NCBI GenBank assembly: GCA_018606725.1
Contig: JAGYID010000007.1
Span: forward strand, 1-51,847
Direction: 5' to 3'
Origin: Acidobacteriota bacterium
Lineage (GTDB): Bacteria > Acidobacteriota > Polarisedimenticolia > Gp22-AA2
Length of the DNA: 51,847 bases
The notes under the pieces were generated by a model. The model was not told the DNA's origin and did no database searches. It saw nothing but the letters and a program-made list of their open reading frames with translations. Positions 18,856-31,587 of the stretch are shown one piece after another. The position numbers and the translations under genes are program-made. Every line of letters starts with the position of its first letter. The stretch's first letter is position 1.

Positions 18856-19986
18856 ATGACTGAATCGCAGGCCGAACGGCCGTGGCTGGCGGCGGGGACG
18901 GGTTCGACCCTCCTGCCGTACCTGCTCGCCTCCCCGGGTCCCTGCCCTGCCCGGCTGGCCGGCGCGCTCGCGGCGCTCGCCGCCGAAGCGGTGCCCGCCC
19001 TGTTGCGGACGATCGAGTACCACCGCATCGACGGGCTGGCCCACCTGGCGCTCGGCGGGCTCGCCGCCGACGGCACCGACGGCTGGCTGCGATCGACGCT
19101 GCGCCGCCGCTACCAGAAGATCGCCGCGGCCACGCTGGCCCAGGGCCTCAGCCTGGCGGAGATCCTGGAGGCCTTCGATCGCTGCGGCATCCCGGTCCTG
19201 GTCATGCGCGGCCTGCACAGCGTCGAGACGATCTACGGCGACCCCGGAGCGCGCCCGTTCGAGGACCACGACCTGCTGGTGCGTCCCGGCGACGCGCGGG
19301 CCGCCGCGGCGGCGCTCGGCCGCCTCGGTTACGAAGCGCCCGGGCCGGCCCTGTTCCGCCGCGGCGGCGTGCTCGTCGATCTGCATGTCGAGCCGCTGGG
19401 CGCCCGCCGGCGACCGAGCCGCGGCGCCTTTTTCCCGATCGACATCGATGCCCTGTTCGCGCGCGCCCGTCAGGGAATGATCGCCGGCGCTCCGGCCCTG
19501 CTCCCGAGCCGCGAGGACACCCTGCTGCTGCTGGCGATCCACCTCGTCAAGCACTCTTTCGACCGACTGATCCGCACCGCCGACCTGGCGCACTTCCTGG
19601 CGCGCGAGACGGCGATCGCCTGGCCGATCGTGAGGGAACGCGCCCGCGCCTGGGGCGCGGAGCGGATCCTGCGCTGGGCCCTCGACGCGGCCGCGGCGCT
19701 CGGCGCCGGCGCGCCGCTCGATCCCGGCCCGGCGCAGGGCAGGCTGGAGAGGGTCCTCATGCGCCGGGCGCTGATGCTGGCGCCGCTGCCGTGGACCGGC
19801 GACATCCTGGTGGCCCTGGCGGCCCCGAGCCGGCTGGCGGCGCTCCGCTTTCTCGCCGAGGCCCTGCTGCCGGCCGGCGAACACCGGGTCGCCGGCTGGA
19901 GGCGGACGCTCGAGGCGCCGCGTCGCATCGCCGACGTGACGCGCGCGGCGGTGCGGCAGCAGATCGACAGGAGGGCGGCGCGATGA
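18856..19986 (+). CDS. Nucleotidyltransferase family protein (NTP_transf_5-like)
   Basis: 'DRCGIPVLVMRGLHSVETIYGDPGARPFEDHDLLVRPGDARAAAAALGRLGYE...GGVLVDLHVEPLG', with the acidic nucleotidyltransferase triad and the 'LLAIHLVKHSFDRLIRTADLAHFL' block. Confidence 0.8.
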   Translation: MTESQAERPWLAAGTGSTLLPYLLASPGPCPARLAGALAALAAEAVPALLRTIEYHRIDGLAHLALGGLAADGTDGWLRSTLRRRYQKIAAATLAQGLSLAEILEAFDRCGIPVLVMRGLHSVETIYGDPGARPFEDHDLLVRPGDARAAAAALGRLGYEAPGPALFRRGGVLVDLHVEPLGARRRPSRGAFFPIDIDALFARARQGMIAGAPALLPSREDTLLLLAIHLVKHSFDRLIRTADLAHFLARETAIAWPIVRERARAWGAERILRWALDAAAALGAGAPLDPGPAQGRLERVLMRRALMLAPLPWTGDILVALAAPSRLAALRFLAEALLPAGEHRVAGWRRTLEAPRRIADVTRAAVRQQIDRRAAR

Positions 19987-20297
19987 GCACGGACCTGGAC
20001 GATGACGCACGGCTCGTCGCCTCGCCCGATGTCGTGGCGCGGCGGATCGCCGGCGAGTACCTGCTCGTGCCGGTGCGCAACGGCGCGGCGCAGATGGACT
20101 ACATCTTCACGGCCAACGAGGTCGGCAGCGTGGTGTTCCGTCTCCTCGACGGGCGCCGCGATCTCCGGGAGATCGCCCGGCTGGTGAGCCTCGAATTCGA
20201 CGTGGACGAGCCGCAGGCGCGCGCCGACGTGCAGTCGTTCCTGGGCGCACTGCGCGAGGCCGGGCTGGTGCGGCCGGCCGGCGGGGAGGGATCGTGA
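19983..20297 (+). CDS. PqqD-family (RiPP recognition element-like) protein, 104 aa
   Basis: 'DARLVASPDVVARRIAGEYLLVPVRNGAAQMDYIFTANEVGSVVFRLLDGRRDLREIARLVSLEFDVDEPQARADVQSFLGALREAGLV'; AGGAGG SD; ATGA overlap with upstream gene. Confidence 0.85.
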   Translation: MSTDLDDDARLVASPDVVARRIAGEYLLVPVRNGAAQMDYIFTANEVGSVVFRLLDGRRDLREIARLVSLEFDVDEPQARADVQSFLGALREAGLVRPAGGEGS

Positions 20298-21595
20298 GCG
20301 GCTGCTCGGATCAGGCCTATGGCGATTTCGGCGGCGGCCTGGTGCGGGCCTGCGGCGGCGCGCGCATCCCCCTGAACGGATCGTTCGAGATCACCTTCCG
20401 CTGCAACCTGCGCTGCGTGCATTGCTACATCGACGACTTCTCCGGGCGCGGCGAGCTGTCGACCGCCGATGTGAAGCGGATCCTGAGCGAGACGGCGGAC
20501 GAGGGGTGCCTGTGGATGCTCCTGACCGGGGGCGAGGTCCTCACCCGCCGCGATTTCCCGGAGATCTACCTGCATGCCAAGCGGCTCGGCTTCCTGCTGA
20601 CGGTGTTCAGCAACGGGACGCTGTGGGATGAGCGGATCGCCGACCTGATGGCGGAGTACCCGCCGTTCGGCATCGAGTTCACCCTGTACGGCCTGTCGGA
20701 CGAAACGTATCTGAAGACCACCGGCTTCCCGGGCCGTTTCACCCGGGTGCGCCGCGCCATCGACCTGGTCCTCGAGCGCCGGCTGCCGCTGTCGCTGAAA
20801 GCGGTCGCCATGGAGCCGCTGGCCGCCGAGATCGCGCCGATGCAGGCGCTGGCCGCCTCGCTCGGGGTCCGCTTCCGTTACGACGCCATGATCCAGGCGC
20901 GGCTGGACGGGTCGATGATCCCGACCGCGGTGCGCAACGATCCGGAGCGCGCGGTCGGCTACGATGCCGGGGACCCGGCCCGCTTCGCCGACTGGGCCCA
21001 GTTCTACCGCACCTACGGCCGCACGGCGCGCCCCAGCCCGTTCGTCATGTCGTGCGGCGCCGGGATCAACACGTTTCACGTCGATCCGAAGGGGACGCTG
21101 CTCGCCTGCCAGTCCCTGCCGCTCAACGGCTACGACCTGCGCCGCGGCTCCTTCCGCGACGGCTGGTACGGCATCGTCGGCGACCTGCTTCGCCGCGAGG
21201 CTTCGCCCGCCAACGTCTGCACCGGATGCGAGCTGAAGGGAATGTGCGATCGGTGTCCCGCCACGGCGACCCTGGAGACCGGCAGCCCTGACGGCTGGAT
21301 CCCGTACTACTGCGAGGTGACCCATCGCCGGGCGGCGCTTCTCGAGGAGAGCTCCGGGAATGCCGACGCCGCGGCCCGCTACCGCGCCCATGCCGAGCGG
21401 GTGGCCGGCGGCTGGACGCCCCCGGGTGCCATCCTGCCGCGGGCCGTCCCCTCCGGTGCCGCCGCGGCCTGCGGATCCGGGGGATGCGCGACCGGCTGCG
21501 GGGCGCCGAAGACGCAGGAGGCCTCCGCTTCGAACTTGCTGCAGATCGAAATTCCACAGCGCGGTTCCGACGTTCACCCCGAGGTGCAACGATGA
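20294..21595 (+). CDS. Radical SAM/SPASM peptide maturase-like protein, 433 aa
   Basis: CxxxCxxC 'CNLRCVHC' at N-term, 'LLTGGEVLTRRDF', SPASM-type cysteines 'CGAGINTFHVDPKGTLLACQ...CTGCELKGMCDRCPA...YYCEVTHRR'; GTG start with GGAGGG SD, GTGA overlap. Confidence 0.93.
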   Translation: MSGCSDQAYGDFGGGLVRACGGARIPLNGSFEITFRCNLRCVHCYIDDFSGRGELSTADVKRILSETADEGCLWMLLTGGEVLTRRDFPEIYLHAKRLGFLLTVFSNGTLWDERIADLMAEYPPFGIEFTLYGLSDETYLKTTGFPGRFTRVRRAIDLVLERRLPLSLKAVAMEPLAAEIAPMQALAASLGVRFRYDAMIQARLDGSMIPTAVRNDPERAVGYDAGDPARFADWAQFYRTYGRTARPSPFVMSCGAGINTFHVDPKGTLLACQSLPLNGYDLRRGSFRDGWYGIVGDLLRREASPANVCTGCELKGMCDRCPATATLETGSPDGWIPYYCEVTHRRAALLEESSGNADAAARYRAHAERVAGGWTPPGAILPRAVPSGAAAACGSGGCATGCGAPKTQEASASNLLQIEIPQRGSDVHPEVQR

Positions 21596-21783
21596 CTGAC
21601 AGTCCCCGATCGCCGCTGGCGGCGGAGCGGCGGCGCTACGAGAGACCGGCGCTGAAGCGGGTCCGCCTGGTGCCCGACGAGGCCGTGCTCGCCTCCTGCA
21701 AGACCAATCAGATTCCGGGCCCGGCCGGCCCGATCGGCAAGTGCGCCACCAATCCGGCGATCTGCTCCCACAATGGCTCGTAA
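21592..21783 (+). CDS. RiPP precursor-like 63-aa peptide
   Basis: MTDSPRSPLAAERRRYERPALKRVRLVPDEAVLASCKTNQIPGPAGPIGKCATNPAICSHNGS: charged leader-like N-half, Cys/Gly/Pro C-half with 3 Cys; own GAGGTG RBS; ATGA overlap with the radical SAM gene. Confidence 0.8.
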   Translation: MTDSPRSPLAAERRRYERPALKRVRLVPDEAVLASCKTNQIPGPAGPIGKCATNPAICSHNGS

Positions 21784-22708
21784 CCCGGTTCCGCCGCTGA
21801 TCCTCGAGGTGGCCCGGATCGGCCTCGAGGTGCGGAGCGAGGATCCGGACGTCACCCTGGTCGCCGAGCCGGCGCACCTGCCGTTCCTGTCGGAGACGGG
21901 GGTCGACGACTGCGCGACGGTGGTGTTCGCGCCGGCGGGCGGGCGCAAGGCGCGCCGCCGTCCCGGCAAGACGCTGTTCGAGACCGGCTCGGTCTGGCGG
22001 CTGGAGGAGATCGGCGAGAACCACCTCCTGACCTTCCGCTCGCCGATCTTCGGCCTGGAGCCGTACCTGTCGGTCGAGTTCGACCGCGACTACTCCCGCG
22101 GCCGCGGCGAGACCCTCGCCGGCGGGCCGATCCTGATCGGCGGCGGCGAGATGCACCCGTTCGTCTATCCGTTCGATGAGGTCGTGTTCCTGGCCCGGCT
22201 GGCGCGCTCGCGCGGCGTGCTGGTGCACGCCTGCGGTCTGTCGTTCGGAGGGCGGGGCGTGCTGTTCCTCGGCACCTCCGGCGCCGGCAAGAGCACCACG
22301 GCCAAGCTGTGGCAGGAGCGCGGCGGAGTGACCGTCCTCAGCGACGATCGGATCGCCATCCGTCCCGAGGACGGCGGCTACCGGATCTACGGCACGCCGT
22401 GGCACGGAGAGGCGGGCCTGGAAGCGCCGGCCTCCGCCCGCCTCGAAGCGGTGTTCATCCTCGAGCAGGCGCCCCGCAACCGCATCGTCGACATCGCGCC
22501 GTCGGCGGCGGTGGCCCAGATGATGGTGCGCGCCTTCCCCGCCATGTGGGACCAGGAGGGGCTCGAGTTCGCGGTCCGCTTCCTGGCCGAACTCGCCGAC
22601 CGGCTGCCGGTGCGGCGCCTGCAGTTCATCCCGGATCGGACGGCCGTCGAATGCGTCCTGGCGATCCTCGACGAAGGCGGCGCCGATGGGGAGGGAGCGG
22701 CTCGATGA
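21773..22708 (+). CDS. HPr kinase-like (HprK/PEPCK-fold) P-loop kinase
   Basis: Walker A 'FLGTSGAGKSTTAKLWQERGGVTVLSDDRIAIRPEDGGYRIYGTPWHGE' typical of HprK-related kinases found beside PqqD-like genes. Confidence 0.82.
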   Translation: MARNPVPPLILEVARIGLEVRSEDPDVTLVAEPAHLPFLSETGVDDCATVVFAPAGGRKARRRPGKTLFETGSVWRLEEIGENHLLTFRSPIFGLEPYLSVEFDRDYSRGRGETLAGGPILIGGGEMHPFVYPFDEVVFLARLARSRGVLVHACGLSFGGRGVLFLGTSGAGKSTTAKLWQERGGVTVLSDDRIAIRPEDGGYRIYGTPWHGEAGLEAPASARLEAVFILEQAPRNRIVDIAPSAAVAQMMVRAFPAMWDQEGLEFAVRFLAELADRLPVRRLQFIPDRTAVECVLAILDEGGADGEGAAR

Positions 22709-25065
22709 GGAGCAGGCTCCACGCCCTGGAGACGCCGACGCCCCGGAGCGCAGCCGCGCCGCCGGCCACGCCGATCCTGCTGGCCGACCGGGACGGCGTC
22801 GCCTTCGTGGTGGCGGCGGATGAGACGGCCGATGACGCGACCGTCCCGCGCCGCGCCGGTGCCCACGGGACCGCGGTCGTGACCATCCCGGTCAGCGCCG
22901 AGGAGCTGCGCGGCACCGAGCTGCAGAGCGCCACCGATGGGGCGATCCGGCCGCGGGTCGCGCCCCGGCCCGATCTCCTCTCCCCCGCGCTGGTGCGGCT
23001 GATCTCGCGCGAACACCGCGAGCTCAGCCTGCAGCCCGGTCGCGACGGCCTCCGGGCGGCGCTGGTGAGCGCCCAGAACGACGAGCAGCCGTATCCGGTG
23101 GCACCCAAGGACGCCGCCGGTCTCCTGGCGGCGGTGTTTCTGAACGCCCCGCGTGGCGTGGTGCAGGTCGGCTCGGGTCGCGCGTCGCGCGTCCTGGTCT
23201 CCGTCCGCCCGGGGCCGCGCCGGCACGAGTACCGGCTGCGGCTGGCGGGGACGGTCACAGCACCGCCGCCGGCCGCTCTCGGAGAGGCCGGTCTGTCCCC
23301 CGCGGCGCTCGAGATCCTGCACGAAGTGATCGACCAGCGGGCGGGTCTCCTGCTGGTCGCGGGCGGCCCGTCGTCCGGCCGGAGCCTCAGCCTCGACCTG
23401 ATCGCCACGGCGCTCCTGGCGCGCGGCCGGAGCGGCGCCCGGATCGGATCGCGCGGGACGGCGACGCACAGCGATCTGCCATCGCTCGCCGGGACCCTGC
23501 TCGACTGGCCATTCCCGGAGAGCCTGCTCGCCACCCGTCCTGACTTCATCCAGATCGACCGCCTCGAAGGCCCGGGCGGGCTCCTGCTCGCCGCCCGGCT
23601 CGCCGCCAGCGGCACCCTGGTCATCGCCGGCACGCCTGCCGGAGAGCCGGAAGCACTGCTGCGCGCTGCGCTCCGCCGCCTCGACGCCGGAGCCGCCCCG
23701 GCCGTGCCCCTGGCGGTGCTGGGGCAGACTCTCTTGAGGACCGTCTGCCGCCGCTGCGCCGGACGCGAACCGCTGTCGGCGGCGGCGCTCCGCCGCTACG
23801 GCTTCCACCGCCGCGACCTCGAGGAGATCGACCGGCGCGGCGGCATGACGATCCAGCGCGGCGCGGGGTGCCCCGACTGCGCCGGCACCGGCGCCGCCGG
23901 GTTGACCGGCGCCTTCGATCTGGCGGGCGCGGAGGAGGTGGCGGCCTCCCTGCCGCGGCTGCGCGAGGAAGGCTGGCGCAAGGTCCTGCAGGGCCAGGTC
24001 TGCTTCGAGGATGTGGCGCTGCTCCCGGGAGCGCACCGCGAGATGCGCACCTTCCGCGAGATCCTGGTGCTGGCGGGGTGCGGCGCCGCCCCCCTCGACG
24101 AAGCGGCGGCCTCACCCGACGGGGCGGCGGGCCGCCCGGCGCGGGAGGCGGCGTCGTCCGGCGTCGCGGGCCCCGCGGACGGTCCCCTTCTGGAACATGC
24201 GGTCACCATGACGCGGCTGTTCGCCGCGGCGCGCGCCAGCGCGGTGGGAGACCTCGGCGCGCCGCTGCGCGAAGAGTTCCGCCGGCTGGCGCGCGCCGTG
24301 GCGGAACATGGCGCCGGCGGCGACCCCCTCGCACCGCGTCTGGTGCCATCGGAGGGATTCGACCTCGCGGCGCATGCGGTCAACACGGCGCTGATCGCCA
24401 CCCGCATCGGCACGCGCCTCGGCGGCGACTCCGACCCGGTCGAGCTCGCCGCCCTGGCGCTCCTGCACGATGTCGGGCTGCTGCGCATCGTCGTCCCTGG
24501 AGCCGCCAGCCCAGCCGTGCTGTTCGAAGAAGAGCTCGACACCGACGGCGAGCGGCTGCGCCCGGGCGGCGCCCTCGAGCGGTTCGGACCCGATGCGGCG
24601 GCCCTGGCCGATCTGGTCACCGCCAGCCACGACCTGCTGACCTTCCGCACTCCCGCGCCCGACGAGCGCGCCCGCGCCGACGCCCGCGCCCAACTTGTGG
24701 CGGTGGCGAGCCTCATGGATCTGCGGCTGCACGGGCCGCAGCCGCAGCGCGCCGCCGACCTGAACGAGGCGACCTCGATCATCATGGAGCAGCATGGCCG
24801 GCGCTTCAGCCGGGCGGTGCTGCGGGCCCTCCTCAAGGCGATCCCGGTGTTCCCGATCGGCGCCCTGGTCGAGCTCAGCAGCGGCGATCGGGCCCGGGTG
24901 GTGGCGCTCAACGAAGACAACCACTTCCGCCCGCGCGTCGAGATCACCTCGGCGGCCGGCGGCGAGATCCTGAGCGAGCGCCGGGTGGTCGACCTGGCGC
25001 GCGCACCGTTCCTGCACATCCGCCAGCGGCTGCCGCAGACCGCCGGCGGCAGGTCACGCCCGTGA
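22705..25065 (+). CDS. Degenerate GspE/PilB-type secretion ATPase domain fused to HD-GYP-like domain, 786 aa
   Basis: PilB-like order 'LSPAALEILHEVIDQRAGLLLVAGGPSSGRSLS...RPDFIQIDRLEGPGGLLLAARLAASGTLVIAGTPAGEPEALLRAALRRLD...GQTLLRTVCRRC...GMTIQRGAGCPDCAGTGAAGLTGAFDL'; then 'HAVNTALIATRIGTRLGGDSDPVELAALALLHDVGLL...RALLKAIPVFPIGALVELSSGDRARVVALNEDNHFRPRVEI', matching the tail of HD-GYP proteins. Confidence 0.78.
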   Translation: MRSRLHALETPTPRSAAAPPATPILLADRDGVAFVVAADETADDATVPRRAGAHGTAVVTIPVSAEELRGTELQSATDGAIRPRVAPRPDLLSPALVRLISREHRELSLQPGRDGLRAALVSAQNDEQPYPVAPKDAAGLLAAVFLNAPRGVVQVGSGRASRVLVSVRPGPRRHEYRLRLAGTVTAPPPAALGEAGLSPAALEILHEVIDQRAGLLLVAGGPSSGRSLSLDLIATALLARGRSGARIGSRGTATHSDLPSLAGTLLDWPFPESLLATRPDFIQIDRLEGPGGLLLAARLAASGTLVIAGTPAGEPEALLRAALRRLDAGAAPAVPLAVLGQTLLRTVCRRCAGREPLSAAALRRYGFHRRDLEEIDRRGGMTIQRGAGCPDCAGTGAAGLTGAFDLAGAEEVAASLPRLREEGWRKVLQGQVCFEDVALLPGAHREMRTFREILVLAGCGAAPLDEAAASPDGAAGRPAREAASSGVAGPADGPLLEHAVTMTRLFAAARASAVGDLGAPLREEFRRLARAVAEHGAGGDPLAPRLVPSEGFDLAAHAVNTALIATRIGTRLGGDSDPVELAALALLHDVGLLRIVVPGAASPAVLFEEELDTDGERLRPGGALERFGPDAAALADLVTASHDLLTFRTPAPDERARADARAQLVAVASLMDLRLHGPQPQRAADLNEATSIIMEQHGRRFSRAVLRALLKAIPVFPIGALVELSSGDRARVVALNEDNHFRPRVEITSAAGGEILSERRVVDLARAPFLHIRQRLPQTAGGRSRP

Positions 25066-25136
25066 GCCGGGCTCCTGATTCGGCGCTTGACACGGATCCC
25101 GCCGCGCGCGACGCGGCCCCTGTCCTGGAGGCCCTC

Positions 25137-26465
25137 ATGAACATCGGTCAGCACACCCTGGTCCCCGTCACCGGGTCGAGCATGCGCCCGACGCTCCTGC
25201 CCGGCGATGCCGTCGAGGTCGGCCCGTTCCACGGCCTGCCGCGGCCCGGGCAGATCGTGCTGGCCCGCGCGGCCTCTGGCCTGGTGGTGCATCGCCTGGT
25301 GCGCGTCGATCTGGTGGACGGCCGGCGCTCGTACCGGCTGCGGGGCGACGCCGAGCGCGCCATGGACGCGGGGCTGCCGCGCCAGTGCCTGCTCGGGCGG
25401 GTGCGCGCTCTCGTCCGCCAGGGCCGGCGGCTGGAGATCGACGACCGCCCCCTGGCGCTCCGTCGCCAGCTCCTGGGCCTCGCCCTGCTCCGGCGCCGCG
25501 GCCGGCTGCTGCGCGCCGCCGGGGTGCTGCTGGTGAGCGCCTTGTGCGTCCTCGGCTGGACCGCCGCCCAGGAGGGGATCGCCCCGGCCCCCGACTACCG
25601 CTTCGGGCCCGGCGACACGTTGTCGCTGCGACTCTGGGACGGCCAGAAGATTGGCGAGCACAAGCTGACGGTGCAGAGCGACGGCGAGGCGTTCCTGCCG
25701 ATCACCGGCATCGGCTCGATGACCGTCTCCGGCCTGACGGTCTCCGATCTCAAGAAGACCCTCGAGGACCGCCTCCGCATGATCTTCAAGGACGTCCGCA
25801 TTGAGCTGCTGGTGATCAAGTACGCCAGCCACCCGGTCCATTTGATGGGCGAGGTCCGCAGCACCACCCGCGTCGACAGCGGCCCGGGCCAGTGGCCGCT
25901 GCGCGGCGCCTCGCGGGTCGTCGAGTTCCTCGCCGAGCACGGCGGCGCGTCGGAGGACGCCGATCTGATGCACATCCTGATCGCCAAGCCGTCGGGGGCG
26001 CGCCGCGAGGTCAACCTGTACCGCGCCGTGTTCCACGGCGCGATGGATGACAACCCGGTGCTCGAGTCCGGTGACTTCGTGTTCGTGCCGACGATGGGGA
26101 TGCGCAACAGCCGCGTCTTCGTCCTCGGCGAGGTGCGGCAGCCGGGCGCCATCCCGATCATGGACCGGCTCGGCCTGGTCGAGGCGATCTCGCGCGCCGC
26201 CGGCTTCACGCAATGGGGCTACATGAAGGGCGTCGTGGTGCTGCGCCGCGGCGCCAACGGCCAGACCGAGATGCAGATCGCCGACTTCAAGAAGATGCAC
26301 AAGGAAGGCGATTTGTCGGCCGACATCCCATTGCAGCCGGGCGACGTGATCTACGTCCCGCGGCGCGCCATCCTGACCGTCCAGGAGGTGTTCTCGATCA
26401 TCAACCCGTCGCTGCAGGCCCTCGAATCGATCTACATCCTGGACAGCTTCCAGAACAACAACTGA
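25137..26465 (+). CDS. S24/S26 signal-peptidase-like domain fused to Wza/KpsD-type polysaccharide export (PES/SLBB) protein
   Basis: 'VPVTGSSMRPTLLPGDAVEVGP...GQIVLARAASGLVVHRLVRVDLVDGRRSYRLRGDAE' then signal-peptide-like 'RRRGRLLRAAGVLLVSALCVLGWTAAQ' and PES/SLBB 'YRFGPGDTLSLRLWDGQKIGEHKLTVQSDGEAFLPITGIG...RVFVLGEVRQPGAIPI...PLQPGDVIYVPRRA'. ATG 25137 has GGAGG at 25127-25131; alternative coupled GTG start at 25062. Confidence 0.82.
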   Translation: MNIGQHTLVPVTGSSMRPTLLPGDAVEVGPFHGLPRPGQIVLARAASGLVVHRLVRVDLVDGRRSYRLRGDAERAMDAGLPRQCLLGRVRALVRQGRRLEIDDRPLALRRQLLGLALLRRRGRLLRAAGVLLVSALCVLGWTAAQEGIAPAPDYRFGPGDTLSLRLWDGQKIGEHKLTVQSDGEAFLPITGIGSMTVSGLTVSDLKKTLEDRLRMIFKDVRIELLVIKYASHPVHLMGEVRSTTRVDSGPGQWPLRGASRVVEFLAEHGGASEDADLMHILIAKPSGARREVNLYRAVFHGAMDDNPVLESGDFVFVPTMGMRNSRVFVLGEVRQPGAIPIMDRLGLVEAISRAAGFTQWGYMKGVVVLRRGANGQTEMQIADFKKMHKEGDLSADIPLQPGDVIYVPRRAILTVQEVFSIINPSLQALESIYILDSFQNNN

Positions 26466-26466
26466 C

Positions 26467-28653
26467 ATGGGCGCGCAGTACGACCTCAATCTTCAGGACT
26501 ACGTCCGCATCCTCCGGCGGCGATGGAAGATCGTCGCCGGATGCTGCGTGGGGCTGGGGCTCCTGACCTTCATCCTCACGCCCCGGCCGGCGCAGGTCTT
26601 CGAGGCGAGCGCCCGCGTCAAGTGGAGCCGCAGCGACAGCGTCACGGGGCTGTTCGTCGAGGCGTTCACCTGGAGCCCGGGCGACGACCTGGCGACGCAG
26701 GCGCAGATCATCACCAGCAAGCCGGTCGCCTTCAGGGCGGCGCAGCGTCTCGGACGGCTGCCTCAGGAGGCCAGCCTCGACGGCGTGCTTCAAGACAAGA
26801 CCCAGTCGACGGTCCTGGACGCGCTGCTGCAGACCTACACGGCCCGCCCGGTCGAGAACACCTCGCTCATCGAGATCAAGAGCGCCTGTCCCGACCCGGA
26901 CGTCGCCGTCCAGGTCGCCAACGCCGTCATGCTGGAGTACATCACCCGGCACACCTTCGAGCGCAACCGCCAGGCGATCGAGGCGCGCGAATTCGTGGCG
27001 CGCCAGGTCGCCGAGGTCGGCGCCCGCCTGCGCGCCGCCGAGGAGCGCCTGACCCGCTTCAAGGAGGCCAACATCGGCGCCAGCATGCCCGACGCAAAGG
27101 AGATCCAGTTCTTCCAGGATGAGGCGGGCCAGACCGAGGCGCGCATCGTCTCGCTGCAGGGTCTCGTGTCGCTGCTGTCGCAGCCGGGCGATCCGGGTTC
27201 CTCTCCCGAGCTCCTGCTGGTGGATCTCAAGGAGGAGGGGCTGGCGATCCTGCGCCAGCAGCTCGCCGATCTGGAGGGACGCAAGCGGCAGCTGCAGATC
27301 TTCCAGCGCGACGACGCCCCGGAGGTGGCCCAGGTCCAGCAGCAGATCGCCGGCCTGACCGGGCGGATGCGGCGCGAAGCGACCACCGCGCTCAACCTGG
27401 TGCTGGAGCGCAAGAAGACCATCGACCAGAAGCTGGAGCGCTTCCCGCGGGCCGAGCAGACGCTGCTGCAGCTGCAGCGCGACGTGGCGGTGAACTCCGA
27501 GGCCTACGAGATGCTCATGCGCAAGCACCAGGAGGCGCTGATCAAGGAGGCCGACAAGGTCCAGGAGCTGTCGGTCGTCGAGATGGCGGCCCACGCCGCG
27601 CCGCGGCAGCTTCCCGGACGACCGCTGCGCTCGTTCGTCGCGGTGGTCGTGGGGCTGCTGCTCGGGCTGGTCGGCGCCTTCCTGGCGGAGACCCTCGACA
27701 CCTCCATCGGCAGCATCGAGGATGTCGAGGATTACCTCGGCCTGTCGGTCATCGGCGTCGTGCCGCACATCGACACGGAGACCACGCGGCGCCAGATCAT
27801 GAAGGCCAACCCGTCGATCGCCTCCGACCCGACCCTCGAGGGCCTGGCCACGCTGGTGACCCAGTTCGCGCCGCAGTCGCCGGTGGCGGAGGCGTTCCGC
27901 TCGCTGCGCACCAACATCGAGTTCTCCCGCATCGGCAAGGCAGGCCGCACCTTCCTGTTCACCTCGGCGTCGCCGTGCGAGGGCAAGTCGACCACGGTCG
28001 CCAACCTCGGCGTGGCGATGGCGCAGATGGGCAAGAAGACGCTGGTGTGGGACTGCGATCTGCGCAGCCCGGCCCTGTCGCGCATCTTCGGTGTGCCGCG
28101 GCAGCCGGGCTTCACGCACGTCGCCCTCGGCATGGCCCGCCTGGACGACGTGCTGCATCGCTTCTCGGAGGTGTTCATCGGCCGCACCGACATGCGGTCC
28201 ATGCTGACCTCCGCCGGGCTCGAGAACCTGCACATCCTGACCGCCGGCGCCCTGCCGCCCAACCCGTCCGAGCTGCTCGCCTCGGCGCTGTTCAGCGACT
28301 TCGTCGTCGAGGTCGCGTCGCGGTTCGATGTCATCCTGATCGACGCGCCGCCGATCCTGCCGGTCACCGATGCAGTCGTCCTGTCGACCCGGGTCGATGG
28401 CGTGGTCCTGGTCTACCAGCTGGGCCGGGTCGGCCGGGCGGCCCTCAAGCGGGCCAAGTCGCACCTCGACAACGTGCACGCCGCCGTCCGGGGCATCGTG
28501 CTGAACGACGTCAAGGCCGAGGTCAGCAACTACACCCCGGACATGCAGTACATCTATCAGCAATACCAGGGCGGACCGCGCGATCAGGCGAGCGAAACGC
28601 CGCGTGATTCCGACTCGGAACGCCCCCCTCGCGCCGCCACCGGCGAGCGCTGA
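26467..28653 (+). CDS. Wzc/ExoP-type chain-length determinant with BY-kinase domain
   Basis: Wzz-like N-term, 'LFTSASPCEGKSTTVANLGVAMAQMGKKTLVWDCDLRSPALSRIFGVPRQPG' (Walker A/A'), 'VILIDAPPILPVTDA', Tyr-rich C-term 'NYTPDMQYIYQQYQGG'. Confidence 0.93.
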   Translation: MGAQYDLNLQDYVRILRRRWKIVAGCCVGLGLLTFILTPRPAQVFEASARVKWSRSDSVTGLFVEAFTWSPGDDLATQAQIITSKPVAFRAAQRLGRLPQEASLDGVLQDKTQSTVLDALLQTYTARPVENTSLIEIKSACPDPDVAVQVANAVMLEYITRHTFERNRQAIEAREFVARQVAEVGARLRAAEERLTRFKEANIGASMPDAKEIQFFQDEAGQTEARIVSLQGLVSLLSQPGDPGSSPELLLVDLKEEGLAILRQQLADLEGRKRQLQIFQRDDAPEVAQVQQQIAGLTGRMRREATTALNLVLERKKTIDQKLERFPRAEQTLLQLQRDVAVNSEAYEMLMRKHQEALIKEADKVQELSVVEMAAHAAPRQLPGRPLRSFVAVVVGLLLGLVGAFLAETLDTSIGSIEDVEDYLGLSVIGVVPHIDTETTRRQIMKANPSIASDPTLEGLATLVTQFAPQSPVAEAFRSLRTNIEFSRIGKAGRTFLFTSASPCEGKSTTVANLGVAMAQMGKKTLVWDCDLRSPALSRIFGVPRQPGFTHVALGMARLDDVLHRFSEVFIGRTDMRSMLTSAGLENLHILTAGALPPNPSELLASALFSDFVVEVASRFDVILIDAPPILPVTDAVVLSTRVDGVVLVYQLGRVGRAALKRAKSHLDNVHAAVRGIVLNDVKAEVSNYTPDMQYIYQQYQGGPRDQASETPRDSDSERPPRAATGER

Positions 28654-28666
28654 CGGAGGGCGTGGC

Positions 28667-30031
28667 GTGCACGCCGAGGCCCTGTCGACCCGCCGGCGCG
28701 GGCTCATGCTGGGAGCCCTGGGGGCCGCCCTCGTCGCCCTGGCCCTCTGGATCGGCTCGGCGCCCCCGGTCCTGCCGCTCGCCGCCGTCGGCGCGGCGGT
28801 GCTGTTCCTGGTCACCCTTCTCAACGTCGACGCCGGCCTGGTGATCATCATCCTGTCGATGCTCCTGTCGCCGGAGATCCCGCTGGGCGGGGTGGGCGGC
28901 TTCGGCATCGAGGGACAGCGCAGCGTGATCCTGCGCACCGAGGACGTGGTGCTGCTGCTGGTCGGTCTCGCCTGGATGGCGCGCATGGCGATTCACAAGG
29001 ATCTCGGGGCCATCCGCCGCAGCCCGCTGAACGGCTGGATCTCCGCCTACGTCGCCGCCTGCCTGCTGTCGACGCTCCTCGGCATCGACGCCGGCCGGGT
29101 CCGCATGATGCAGGGGCTCGCCTTCGTCCTGAAATACGTCGAGTACTTCATCCTGTTCTTCCTGACCCTCAACTACGTGCGCGGCGAGACGCAGCTGCGG
29201 CGCCTGCTGGCGGCGGTGCTGATCACCGCCGCCCTGATCGCCGTCTATGCCGGCTGGCAGATCCCCTCCGGGGCCCGGCCCTCGGCGCCGTTCGAGGGGA
29301 AGGAGGGCGAACCGAACACGCTCGGCGGCTATCTGGTGCTGATCTTCTGCCTGTCGGCCGCCCTGGCGCAGACCTGCGTCGAGCGCCGCTGGCGACGCGG
29401 CGCCCTCCTCCTCGCCGCCGCCACGCTGCCGCCGCTGGTCGCCACGCTGTCGCGCAGCTCCTGGCTGGCGCTCGCCGCCGGCGCCGCCGTCCTGCTGGCG
29501 CTGGCGCCCGAGCGCCGCGCCTTCGGCATCGCCATGCTCCTGGCCGCGGCGCTGCTGCTGCTGATCCATCCGAAGAGCGTCGAGGAGCGGATCGACTACA
29601 CCCTGCATGGCGAGCCTGGCGCCGGGGCGACCCACCGGCTGCAGCTCGATCCGTCGGCCGAGGCGCGGCTCTCCTCCTGGGGACGGGCGATCGACGGCTG
29701 GCTCGAGCACCCGTTGCTGGGACGCGGGGTCACCGGCTTCGGATTCTTCGACGCCCAGTATTTCCGCGCCCTGGTCGAGCTCGGAGCGCTCGGTTTCGCC
29801 GCCTTCGCCGGCCTGCTGTATGCCTGCGGGACGCTGTTCTGGCGGGCCCACCGGATCCTCCGGGAGCCGCTGCACCGCGGCCTGGCGCTCGGCATGGTCG
29901 CCGGCTTCGCCGCCCTGCTGACGCATGCGATCGGCACCAACACCTTCATCCTCATCCGGATCATGGAGCCGTTCTGGCTGCTCACCGGCCTGGTGGTGGC
30001 GGCGCTGACCCTGGAGGAGGCGCGCGCATGA
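28667..30031 (+). CDS. O-antigen ligase/polymerase (Wzy/WaaL-like)
   Basis: Multi-TM protein with 'LSRSSWLALAAGAAVLLALAPERRAFG' and 'SSWGRAIDGWLEHPLLGRGVTGFGFFDAQYFRALVELGALGFAAF'; GTG start with GGAGGG SD. Confidence 0.85.
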   Translation: MHAEALSTRRRGLMLGALGAALVALALWIGSAPPVLPLAAVGAAVLFLVTLLNVDAGLVIIILSMLLSPEIPLGGVGGFGIEGQRSVILRTEDVVLLLVGLAWMARMAIHKDLGAIRRSPLNGWISAYVAACLLSTLLGIDAGRVRMMQGLAFVLKYVEYFILFFLTLNYVRGETQLRRLLAAVLITAALIAVYAGWQIPSGARPSAPFEGKEGEPNTLGGYLVLIFCLSAALAQTCVERRWRRGALLLAAATLPPLVATLSRSSWLALAAGAAVLLALAPERRAFGIAMLLAAALLLLIHPKSVEERIDYTLHGEPGAGATHRLQLDPSAEARLSSWGRAIDGWLEHPLLGRGVTGFGFFDAQYFRALVELGALGFAAFAGLLYACGTLFWRAHRILREPLHRGLALGMVAGFAALLTHAIGTNTFILIRIMEPFWLLTGLVVAALTLEEARA

Positions 30032-31587
30032 GCGTCGAGCGCCGGCAGGCGGCGCGATCGGTGGGTTGGGGGGCGATCGAGTCGGCCTGCGGAGCGCTGG
30101 TCGGGTTGTGCCTGACGCCGCTGGTCATCCGGGCCGTCGGTCTGGAGGGGCTCGGGTTGTGGGCCGCCTGCTGGTCGCTGGCGCACACGGCGAACGTCGC
30201 CGACTGCGGCGTGGGCGCCTCCTACAGCCGCTTCACCGCGCGCGCCATCGCCGCCGCCGATGACGTCGCGCTCAATGCCGCCGTCGGGGCCGGCATCGGG
30301 TTTCATCTGGCACTGTCCGTCGTCGTCGGCCTGTCGGCCTGGGCCCTGGGGCCCCGCCTGCTGGCGACGCTGGCGCCACCCGGCGCGCTCGCCGGCGAGG
30401 CACCGGTGGCCTTCGCCTGCGTGCTCGCCGCTGTCTGCCTGCGCCTGACCACCTCGGGATTCCGCGCGGTGGTGGCGGGCGCCCAGCGTCTCGATCTGCT
30501 CGGCCGCATCGGCAGCGCCGCCTCCCTTCTCGAGGGGTGCGTGGCGGCGGCGATCCTGTGGCGCGGCGGATCGTTGTCCGGGCTGGCGATCAACGCCCTG
30601 AGCATGGCGGCCCTGACCAGCACCGCCGAAGGGATCGCGGCGGCCCGCCTCTGTCCGGGGTTGAGGATCCGTCCCTTCGCGGCGCGACGATCCGACTGGC
30701 GGGAGATCCTGTCGTTCGGCGCCCGCCTGCAGGCGGCGCGGGCCGGCGAAATCCTGGCGGCGCACGCGCCGCGGCTCGCCCTGGCGTGGGGCCCCGGACT
30801 CATGGCGGCCGGCGCCTACGACCTCGCGGCGCGCGCCGCCGGGCTTCTCAACCTGGCCGGATCGCTGCCGCTGCCGGTGGTGCAGCCTCTCGCCAGCCGT
30901 CTCGAGGCGCGGCAGGAGCGCGATCGGTTGCGCGCCCTGGTGCGCGCCGCGACCCGCTACGTGGCCCTGCTCGTCGTTCCGGGGGCGATCCTCCTGATCC
31001 TGCGCTCCGCCGACGTGCTGCAGGCCTGGACCGGTCGCGCCGCTCCGCCGGGTTCGGTCGCCAGCCTGCGCTGGCTGGCCGCCGCCCTGGCTGTGGCGCT
31101 GATCCTGTCGCCGCTGCGTCTGGCGCTGCGCGGCGCCGGGCTGCCCGGCATCGAGGCCTCGGCTGCTCTCGGCGGCGCCGCCCTGAACCTGGTTCTCGCC
31201 ATGGCTCTCGCGCCCCGGCTCGGGGCGGCGGGCGCGGCGCTCGCGGCGTTCGCCGCCGCCATCGCCGCGGCGATCGTCCTGTTGGCCGGCGCCCTGCGTC
31301 GGGCGCCCGATCTCGTGAGCGGCTGTCTGCCGCCCGCCCTGCGGCCGTTGCTGCCCGCGGGCGGGGCCGGGATCCTGGCGGTGGCGGCGTCGGGCGCGCT
31401 CCTGCCGGTCGCCGGGCCCGATCTGTCGGGGCGCTTCCAGGCGATCGCCCGGCTGGCGCCGGCGGCGGCCACCCTCGTTGCCGTCATGCTCGCCCTGCTG
31501 GTCCTGCAACGTGCGGTGGGGCGGGACGACCTGGCGCTGCTGCGCGACGCCCTGCTGCTGCCGGGACGGGCGGGGGGCGGGGCATGA
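30028..31587 (+). CDS. Wzx-type polysaccharide flippase (MVF/MATE-like)
   Basis: Multi-TM; 'AARSVGWGAIESACGALVGLCLTPLVIRAVGLEGLGLWAACWSLAHTANVADCGVGASYSRFTA'; ATGA overlap. Confidence 0.85.
   Translation: MSVERRQAARSVGWGAIESACGALVGLCLTPLVIRAVGLEGLGLWAACWSLAHTANVADCGVGASYSRFTARAIAAADDVALNAAVGAGIGFHLALSVVVGLSAWALGPRLLATLAPPGALAGEAPVAFACVLAAVCLRLTTSGFRAVVAGAQRLDLLGRIGSAASLLEGCVAAAILWRGGSLSGLAINALSMAALTSTAEGIAAARLCPGLRIRPFAARRSDWREILSFGARLQAARAGEILAAHAPRLALAWGPGLMAAGAYDLAARAAGLLNLAGSLPLPVVQPLASRLEARQERDRLRALVRAATRYVALLVVPGAILLILRSADVLQAWTGRAAPPGSVASLRWLAAALAVALILSPLRLALRGAGLPGIEASAALGGAALNLVLAMALAPRLGAAGAALAAFAAAIAAAIVLLAGALRRAPDLVSGCLPPALRPLLPAGGAGILAVAASGALLPVAGPDLSGRFQAIARLAPAAATLVAVMLALLVLQRAVGRDDLALLRDALLLPGRAGGGA

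Follow-up and report, generated by a model that had tools for sequence, protein, structure and literature searches.

What might a bacterium make with a cluster in which the genes for a peptide-recognition protein, a radical S-adenosylmethionine (SAM) enzyme, a very short peptide and a putative kinase overlap one another, and on which residue would such a kinase act? The question is raised by a 51,847-nucleotide (nt) stretch of Acidobacteriota DNA (contig JAGYID010000007.1; hereafter the window), in which five overlapping genes at 18856-22708 encode an NTP_transf_5 protein, a PqqD-like protein, a radical SAM/SPASM enzyme, a peptide of 63 amino acids and an HprK-like kinase. We predict from their sequences that these genes belong to a widespread, apparently undescribed cassette for a small modified peptide, here in a soil acidobacterium. 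The cassette probably specifies a ribosomally synthesized and post-translationally modified peptide (RiPP) of the radical SAM type, with leader recognition in the style of lasso peptides and tailoring of a C-terminal phosphoserine. Its genes are:

18856..19986, + strand: NTP_transf_5 (PF14907) protein, 376 amino acids, predicted accessory enzyme of nucleotidyltransferase fold (Pfam 137.9 bits, cut-off 31.2)
19983..20297, + strand: PqqD-like RiPP recognition element, 104 amino acids (Pfam PqqD 59.5 bits, cut-off 23.4)
20294..21595, + strand: radical SAM/SPASM peptide-modifying enzyme, 433 amino acids, GTG start (Pfam Radical_SAM 71.3 bits, cut-off 29.5)
21592..21783, + strand: precursor peptide, 63 amino acids, leader motif Y16xxP19xL21 and PDEAVLA, core SCK...C...C...GS, conserved in the window's family and far beyond
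21773..22708, + strand: HprK-like peptide kinase, 311 amino acids, motif H152-G167-G170-G172-K173-S174-D191-D192

A preliminary description of the locus, made from the sequence alone, had given the same five positions and junctions, and both hold: the open reading frames (ORFs) are linked by ATGA, GTGA and ATGA, each a 4-nt overlap, and then by an overlap of 11 nt. Pfam profiles, proposed there as a check on each protein, name four of them, the kinase weakly (Hpr_kinase_C 21.9 bits, below the cut-off of 33.3). In NCBIfam, none of the five proteins exceeds a curated cut-off, the peptide has no match, and there is no model for either the peptide or the kinase; the top match of the PqqD-like protein is a lasso PqqD model, again below cut-off.

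Judged by its sequence, the 63-residue peptide is encoded by a real gene and not by a chance ORF, because its GC content at third codon positions (GC3) is 0.86 and because it is conserved beside the same genes both in the window's family, with 52-76% identity in six other genomes, and outside it, with relatives of the peptide next to homologous cassettes in dozens more families. The peptide thus recurs in many Acidobacteriota families and in metagenome-assembled genomes (MAGs) of at least seven other phyla. The preliminary description would have abandoned the pathway had the peptide not been conserved next to homologous radical SAM genes, a trial that the peptide passed. A short ORF in GC-rich DNA does invite the alternative of a chance frame without precursor function, yet the conservation of the peptide in its sequence, place and C-terminus, seen in many phyla, refutes it and leaves it a negligible probability. 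Within the peptide, three elements stand out:

21637..21654, + strand: YxxPxL motif, here YERPAL at residues 16-21, putative site of PqqD binding; alignment A3 shows Y, P and L26/E30 to be invariant
21694..21780, + strand: predicted core SCKTNQIPGPAGPIGKCATNPAICSHNGS, residues 35-63, assuming cleavage at a putative site after AVLA
21778..21780, + strand: C-terminal Ser63, predicted phosphorylation site, from the conservation of the terminal residue

The consensus reads [K/R]xYxxPxLxxVxLRPEEAVLGxCK, followed by a core rich in Gly, Ser, Thr and Ala that holds two more cysteines and ends in GS or AS. Since the 87 non-redundant precursors compared here were chosen by an aromatic-xxP start, their proline count is given by construction; the leader aromatic is Tyr in 80 and Trp in six, and Leu, Val or Ile stands at position +5 in 76. 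Three core cysteines (C36, C51 and C58 in the window) occur in 76 of the 87 and a CK in 82; Trp is rare. Of the 87, 85 end in Ser, one in Thr (locus L154) and one in Leu (L142), and the positions near the last residue are variable, except for the Gly or Ala just before. Likewise, all 19 complete precursors from a search led by the peptide end in Ser (17) or Thr (2). This is the pattern expected of a requirement for a hydroxyl group.

For the radical SAM enzyme, the cysteines C37-C41-C44 of the CxxxCxxC motif and the SPASM cysteines C254, C272, C309, C312, C318, C321 and C340 are invariant among 24 homologues. Together with a separate recognition element and an adjoining precursor of conserved leader and variable core, the locus thus has the features by which radical SAM/SPASM RiPP systems are recognised, and the radical SAM RiPP logic of the preliminary description is borne out by the PqqD-like protein, the SPASM enzyme and the conserved peptide beside them. 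We consider it very probable that the enzyme modifies the precursor. Its nearest solved relatives are SkfB, a thioether-forming sactisynthase, followed by PqqE; whether the bonds formed would be thioethers is an evenly balanced call.

The AlphaFold2 model of the kinase (mean predicted local distance difference test, pLDDT, 90.8) falls in the phosphoenolpyruvate carboxykinase/HPr-kinase structure group. H152, K173 and D191 are invariant and D192 is at least 90% conserved among 23 homologues; the motif, which has the His, the glycine-rich loop with Lys-Ser and the Asp-Asp of the lasso-type kinases, was found in 91 of 98. The tested lasso kinase BsfK carries H148-G163-G166-G168-K169-S170-D186-D187 (PMC10368454). 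Counted from the His, the offsets are 15, 18, 20, 21, 22, 38 and 39 in the published BsfK motif and 15, 18, 20, 21, 22, 39 and 40 in the window, i.e. one extra residue ahead of Asp-Asp and no other difference. A PqqD-like B1 protein speeds phosphorylation of the lasso precursor (PMC10368454), and PadeK, ThcoK, SyanK and PsmK phosphorylate a C-terminal Ser (PMC9266682). It is quite likely that the C-terminal Ser is also the site of the window kinase.

Of 297 genomes surveyed in the phylum, 37 encode radical SAM relatives at E<1e-50, and in most of their surroundings PqqD, radical SAM, peptide and kinase occur together. A kinase-profile scan of GTDB genomes yielded 80 loci; the closest, with 73-78% identity, come from Acidobacteria 'gp22' MAGs, and the others are spread over many phyla. 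The MAG titles name Acidobacteriota, Nitrospirota, Omnitrophota, Myxococcales, Planctomycetes, Chloroflexota, Armatimonadetes, Actinobacteria and Deltaproteobacteria. Among 100 non-redundant loci, retrieved via kinase or radical SAM, we counted radical SAM in 89, PqqD in 82, the peptide in 92, an S24/S26 peptidase in 82 and NTP_transf_5 in 30; PqqD, radical SAM, peptide and kinase are jointly present in 76, the remainder often being cut by contig ends. Because of this mode of retrieval, a search was also made with the peptide profile alone. It matched 41 of 396 genomes, and a kinase lies nearby in 13 of 19 loci taken from that set. Weak peptide matches in L080-L083, with no cassette nearby, were dismissed as chance.

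The NTP_transf_5 protein is found in all related loci of the window's family (L051 is cut by the contig end). G119, R133, D137, D139, H177 and D243 are invariant among 11 homologues; the first four resemble active-site residues, with D137 and D139 forming a DxD motif. Since its model (pLDDT 82.6) is closest to the nucleotidyltransferase ANT(2'')-Ia (E 2.5e-3) and weakly resembles FKRP, a CDP-ribitol phosphotransferase, both nucleotidyl and sugar-phosphate transfer are possible. PsmN, an annotated nucleotidyltransferase, is required for hexose addition to the C-terminal Ser of pseudomycoidin (PMC9266682). That the NTP_transf_5 protein acts on a phosphate falls just short of an even chance. A peptide crosslinked and then phosphorylated or nucleotidylated had been suggested before; the phosphorylation is strengthened by the near-invariant terminal Ser/Thr and the intact kinase motif, whereas the nucleotidyltransferase was rejected as a core component, being near only 30 of the 100 cassettes.

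The operon extends beyond 22708, the end of the five genes of the preliminary description, and the S24/S26 peptidase and exopolysaccharide genes that follow had been overlooked. Junctions past this point are 4-nt overlaps or a 1-nt gap through the GspE/HD, S24-Wza and Wzc (26467) genes, after which Wzy, Wzx and glycosyltransferases follow in the same operon:

22705..25065, + strand: GspE/PilB-like and HD-domain protein, 786 amino acids, degenerate Walker A (GGPSSGRS), 4-nt overlaps
25062..26465, + strand: S24/S26 Ser/His peptidase domain (Ser40, His77) joined to a polysaccharide export protein of Wza type, 467 amino acids in all (Poly_export 49.0 bits, SLBB)
26467..28653, + strand: Wzc-like chain-length/tyrosine-kinase-type protein (Pfam GNVR and AAA_31 above cut-off, Wzz below)
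28604..30031, + strand: Wzy/O-antigen ligase-like protein (Pfam Wzy_C 46.9 bits)
30028..31587, + strand: Wzx-like flippase (Pfam Polysacc_synt_3 27.9 bits)

With the S24/S26 peptidase fused to the Wza-type protein, the cassette is therefore continuous with the exopolysaccharide operon. The fusion recurs in the other members of the window's family, in all of which the GspE/PilB-like gene lies between kinase and S24-Wza gene; elsewhere, the S24/S26 domain forms the N-terminus of large Peptidase_C25 proteins or is free-standing. It follows the kinase directly in 65 loci, and its SMxP Ser (69/70) and His (69/69) are conserved. We regard this domain as the best leader-peptidase candidate because the conserved VL[G/A] ahead of xCK agrees with the signal-peptidase -3/-1 rule, although the chances that it is the leader peptidase are about equal either way. 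A gene group containing Peptidase_C25 proteins is present at 49 loci (four members and L061 were checked full-length against Pfam). Directly downstream of the kinase, L108:9743-18814, L105:9671-16096 and L098:9822-15068 encode giant proteins with an N-terminal S24-like and a C-terminal, gingipain-type Peptidase_C25 domain. At L142:9733-11952, NTP_transf_5 is fused to a Wza-type exporter, and only here does the peptide end in Leu. At L166 (Butyrivibrio plasmid pNP243), L167 and L168, the kinase is accompanied by PqqD and an S24/S26 peptidase but by no radical SAM gene.

Taken together, the PqqD-like protein would bind the YxxPxL leader and present the precursor, and the radical SAM/SPASM enzyme would form carbon-sulfur crosslinks from C36, C51 and C58. 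The HprK-like kinase would then phosphorylate the Ser63 hydroxyl. Where present, as here, NTP_transf_5 might add a nucleotidyl or sugar-phosphate group to the Ser63 phosphate, as is thought for PsmN on pseudomycoidin, and the S24/S26 Ser/His peptidase would cut off the leader, probably after AVLA34. The monoisotopic mass calculated for the predicted core is 2822.33; it would be 2816.28 with three thioethers, 2896.25 with phosphate as well and 3058.30 with a further hexose. In the window's family, the product may act in or exit via the exopolysaccharide system of the same operon, although a function tied to exopolysaccharide is a tentative suggestion. It is very improbable, if conceivable, that a crosslinked peptide whose C-terminal phospho-Ser bears a nucleotidyl or sugar-phosphate group serves as primer or anchor for the operon's exopolysaccharide, i.e. 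as a RiPP-polysaccharide conjugate.

Several observations weigh against this pathway. The kinase family alone cannot fix the site, since BsfK phosphorylates Ser3 of a precursor that ends in Asp (PMC10368454) and since a distant Butyrivibrio kinase (L166) adjoins a peptide ending in Trp. The 87 precursors share kinship, so that the terminal-Ser counts are not independent, and the peptide profile, built from precursors all ending in Ser, is mildly biased by this selection. Some ten kinase loci have no radical SAM gene nearby, and some peptides stand alone, such as the orphan precursor-like peptide at L169:8049-8213, which ends in Ser and around which no kinase, PqqD or radical SAM was recognised within a 16-kb stretch. 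Besides, the nucleotidyl or sugar-phosphate step appears optional, given the co-occurrence of NTP_transf_5 at 30% only, and Peptidase_S24 (PF00717) scores 22.3 bits, just below its gathering cut-off of 23.3.

How do other readings fare? The kinase of a radical SAM RiPP could instead act on an internal Ser or Thr, or phosphorylate en route to dehydration, the C-terminal Ser being kept for, e.g., recognition by a peptidase or exporter. The cores offer ample substrate (Ser 12%, Thr 8%), and the internal Ser3 of the BsfK precursor sets a precedent (PMC10368454). Yet no internal Ser/Thr column comes near the conservation of the last residue, the terminal Ser-to-Thr swaps point to a hydroxyl requirement there, and no lyase gene was seen by Pfam among the scanned operon genes, which makes this reading improbable. 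As for the bond, instead of Cys thioethers the radical SAM enzyme might produce a C-C or C-O link, an epimer or a link through the Lys of the conserved CK: the Lys37 column (80/87) is as conserved as that of Cys36 (78/87), and PqqE, the second solved relative, is a C-C bond former. The three core cysteines in 76 of 87 precursors argue the other way, as does the absence from the 87 of the conserved aromatic partners typical of C-C crosslinks; we hold another bond to be possible, if on the unlikely side.

A rather unlikely alternative departs further from a secreted product and regards the cassette as a regulatory or signalling device of the exopolysaccharide operon, in which the kinase, in the manner of HPr kinase, would sense the metabolic state, with the peptide acting as carrier or regulator. 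The unbroken operon with Wza, Wzc, Wzy and Wzx speaks for such a device, as do the S24-Wza fusion of the window's family and the NTP_transf_5-Wza fusion in L142. Wza-type genes, however, were found at 18 loci only (before duplicate removal), and many other loci have Peptidase_C25 proteins instead.

Among known systems, the phosphorylated lasso peptides (paeninodin with PadeK, pseudomycoidin with PsmK/PsmN, and Bradymonas bsf) share with the window a YxxPxL leader, a separate PqqD-like protein, an HprK-like kinase of the same motif, an optional nucleotidyltransferase and, in most kinase-bearing precursors, a C-terminal Ser. Lasso leaders carry YxxPxL (PMC10368454), and both PqqD and the StsC protein of a sactipeptide are reported to have a W/Y/LxxP/L/I recognition sequence (PMC12710340); the window cassette has both the lasso leader motif and the B1-like protein. 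In contrast to lasso systems, a radical SAM/SPASM enzyme and an S24/S26 peptidase replace the B2 peptidase and C cyclase, and the core has three conserved cysteines. A lasso peptide proper was rejected, as Pfam recognised no B2 leader peptidase or Asn-synthetase-like C cyclase among the operon genes at 18856-31587. Sactipeptides and ranthipeptides (SkfB, AlbA, StsB and PapB type) likewise combine a radical SAM/SPASM enzyme, a recognition element and a Cys-containing core. The window enzyme scores far below the NCBIfam maturase cut-offs (StsB 54.8/625, AlbA 43/850, PapB 41.8/340 and SkfB 34/300 bits), and the sactipeptide pathways described so far include, to our knowledge, neither a kinase nor a nucleotidyltransferase.

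HprK-related kinases also occur with PqqD-like proteins in the HPr-rel-A and HprK_rel_B systems (TIGR04352, TIGR04353, TIGR04355). The HPr-rel-A context that the preliminary description had proposed did not survive (HprK_rel_A 17.1/200 and PqqD_rel_X 19.3/35 bits, both below cut-off), and HprK-related kinase B (TIGR04355; 32.3/200 bits) was rejected in the same way. SynChlorMet cassettes (ScmA-F), which include a small peptide, resemble the window in their HprK-like, PqqD-like and radical SAM/SPASM proteins, the window having one radical SAM gene; ScmC (26/125), ScmD (19.8/100) and ScmE (53.2/400 bits) all stay below cut-off. So do the equivalog models of pyrroloquinoline quinone biosynthesis (PqqD 28.6/46, PqqE 56.4/381 bits). 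RRE-Finder reported about 300 lasso-type RiPP recognition elements beside radical SAM genes, which may include this cassette family; the words kinase and HPr are absent from the main text of that paper. Our literature search, whose coverage stopped short of preprints outside PMC and most subscription papers, returned no description of the cassette family, the terminal Ser rule or the S24/S26 partner. The individual parts are known; what apparently is undescribed is that they recur together as a single conserved family, with precursors ending in Ser and a peptidase of S24/S26 type.

These findings suggest that a leader-kinase-nucleotidyltransferase module, so far known from lasso peptides, pairs with radical SAM/SPASM enzymes across many phyla, mostly in uncultured bacteria. 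The rule that an HprK-like kinase means a C-terminal phospho-Ser thereby becomes testable beyond lasso peptides, the cassette lends itself to compact heterologous systems, and YxxPxL...EEAVLGxCK...C...C...Ser-end provides a signature for genome mining. The operon link to exopolysaccharide export further suggests a cell-surface role for a RiPP.

A few loci merit separate mention. A plasmid search for homologous kinases returned distant Butyrivibrio and Bacteroidales relatives only, with no tested lasso kinase among them; the Trp-ended Butyrivibrio peptide of L166 is Cys-rich and 57 amino acids long, with glycosyltransferases nearby. The L098 record, titled Bordetella parapertussis (MAG), has the cassette, its label probably being misassigned. 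The genome of the window holds a second HprK/radical SAM system (L085, G000:C39:1-14000) with HprK, a 722-amino-acid HprK-matching ORF, PqqD, radical SAM and Peptidase_C25, in which no precursor was recognised. Lastly, the acidobacterial loci L074, L077, L078 and L084 have a fusion of HprK to radical SAM, along with PqqD and additional radical SAM genes; they look closer to SynChlorMet, those tested also scoring below the cut-offs, and in L074, L077 and L084 we recognised peptides that begin with a leader of WxxP type and end in Ser.

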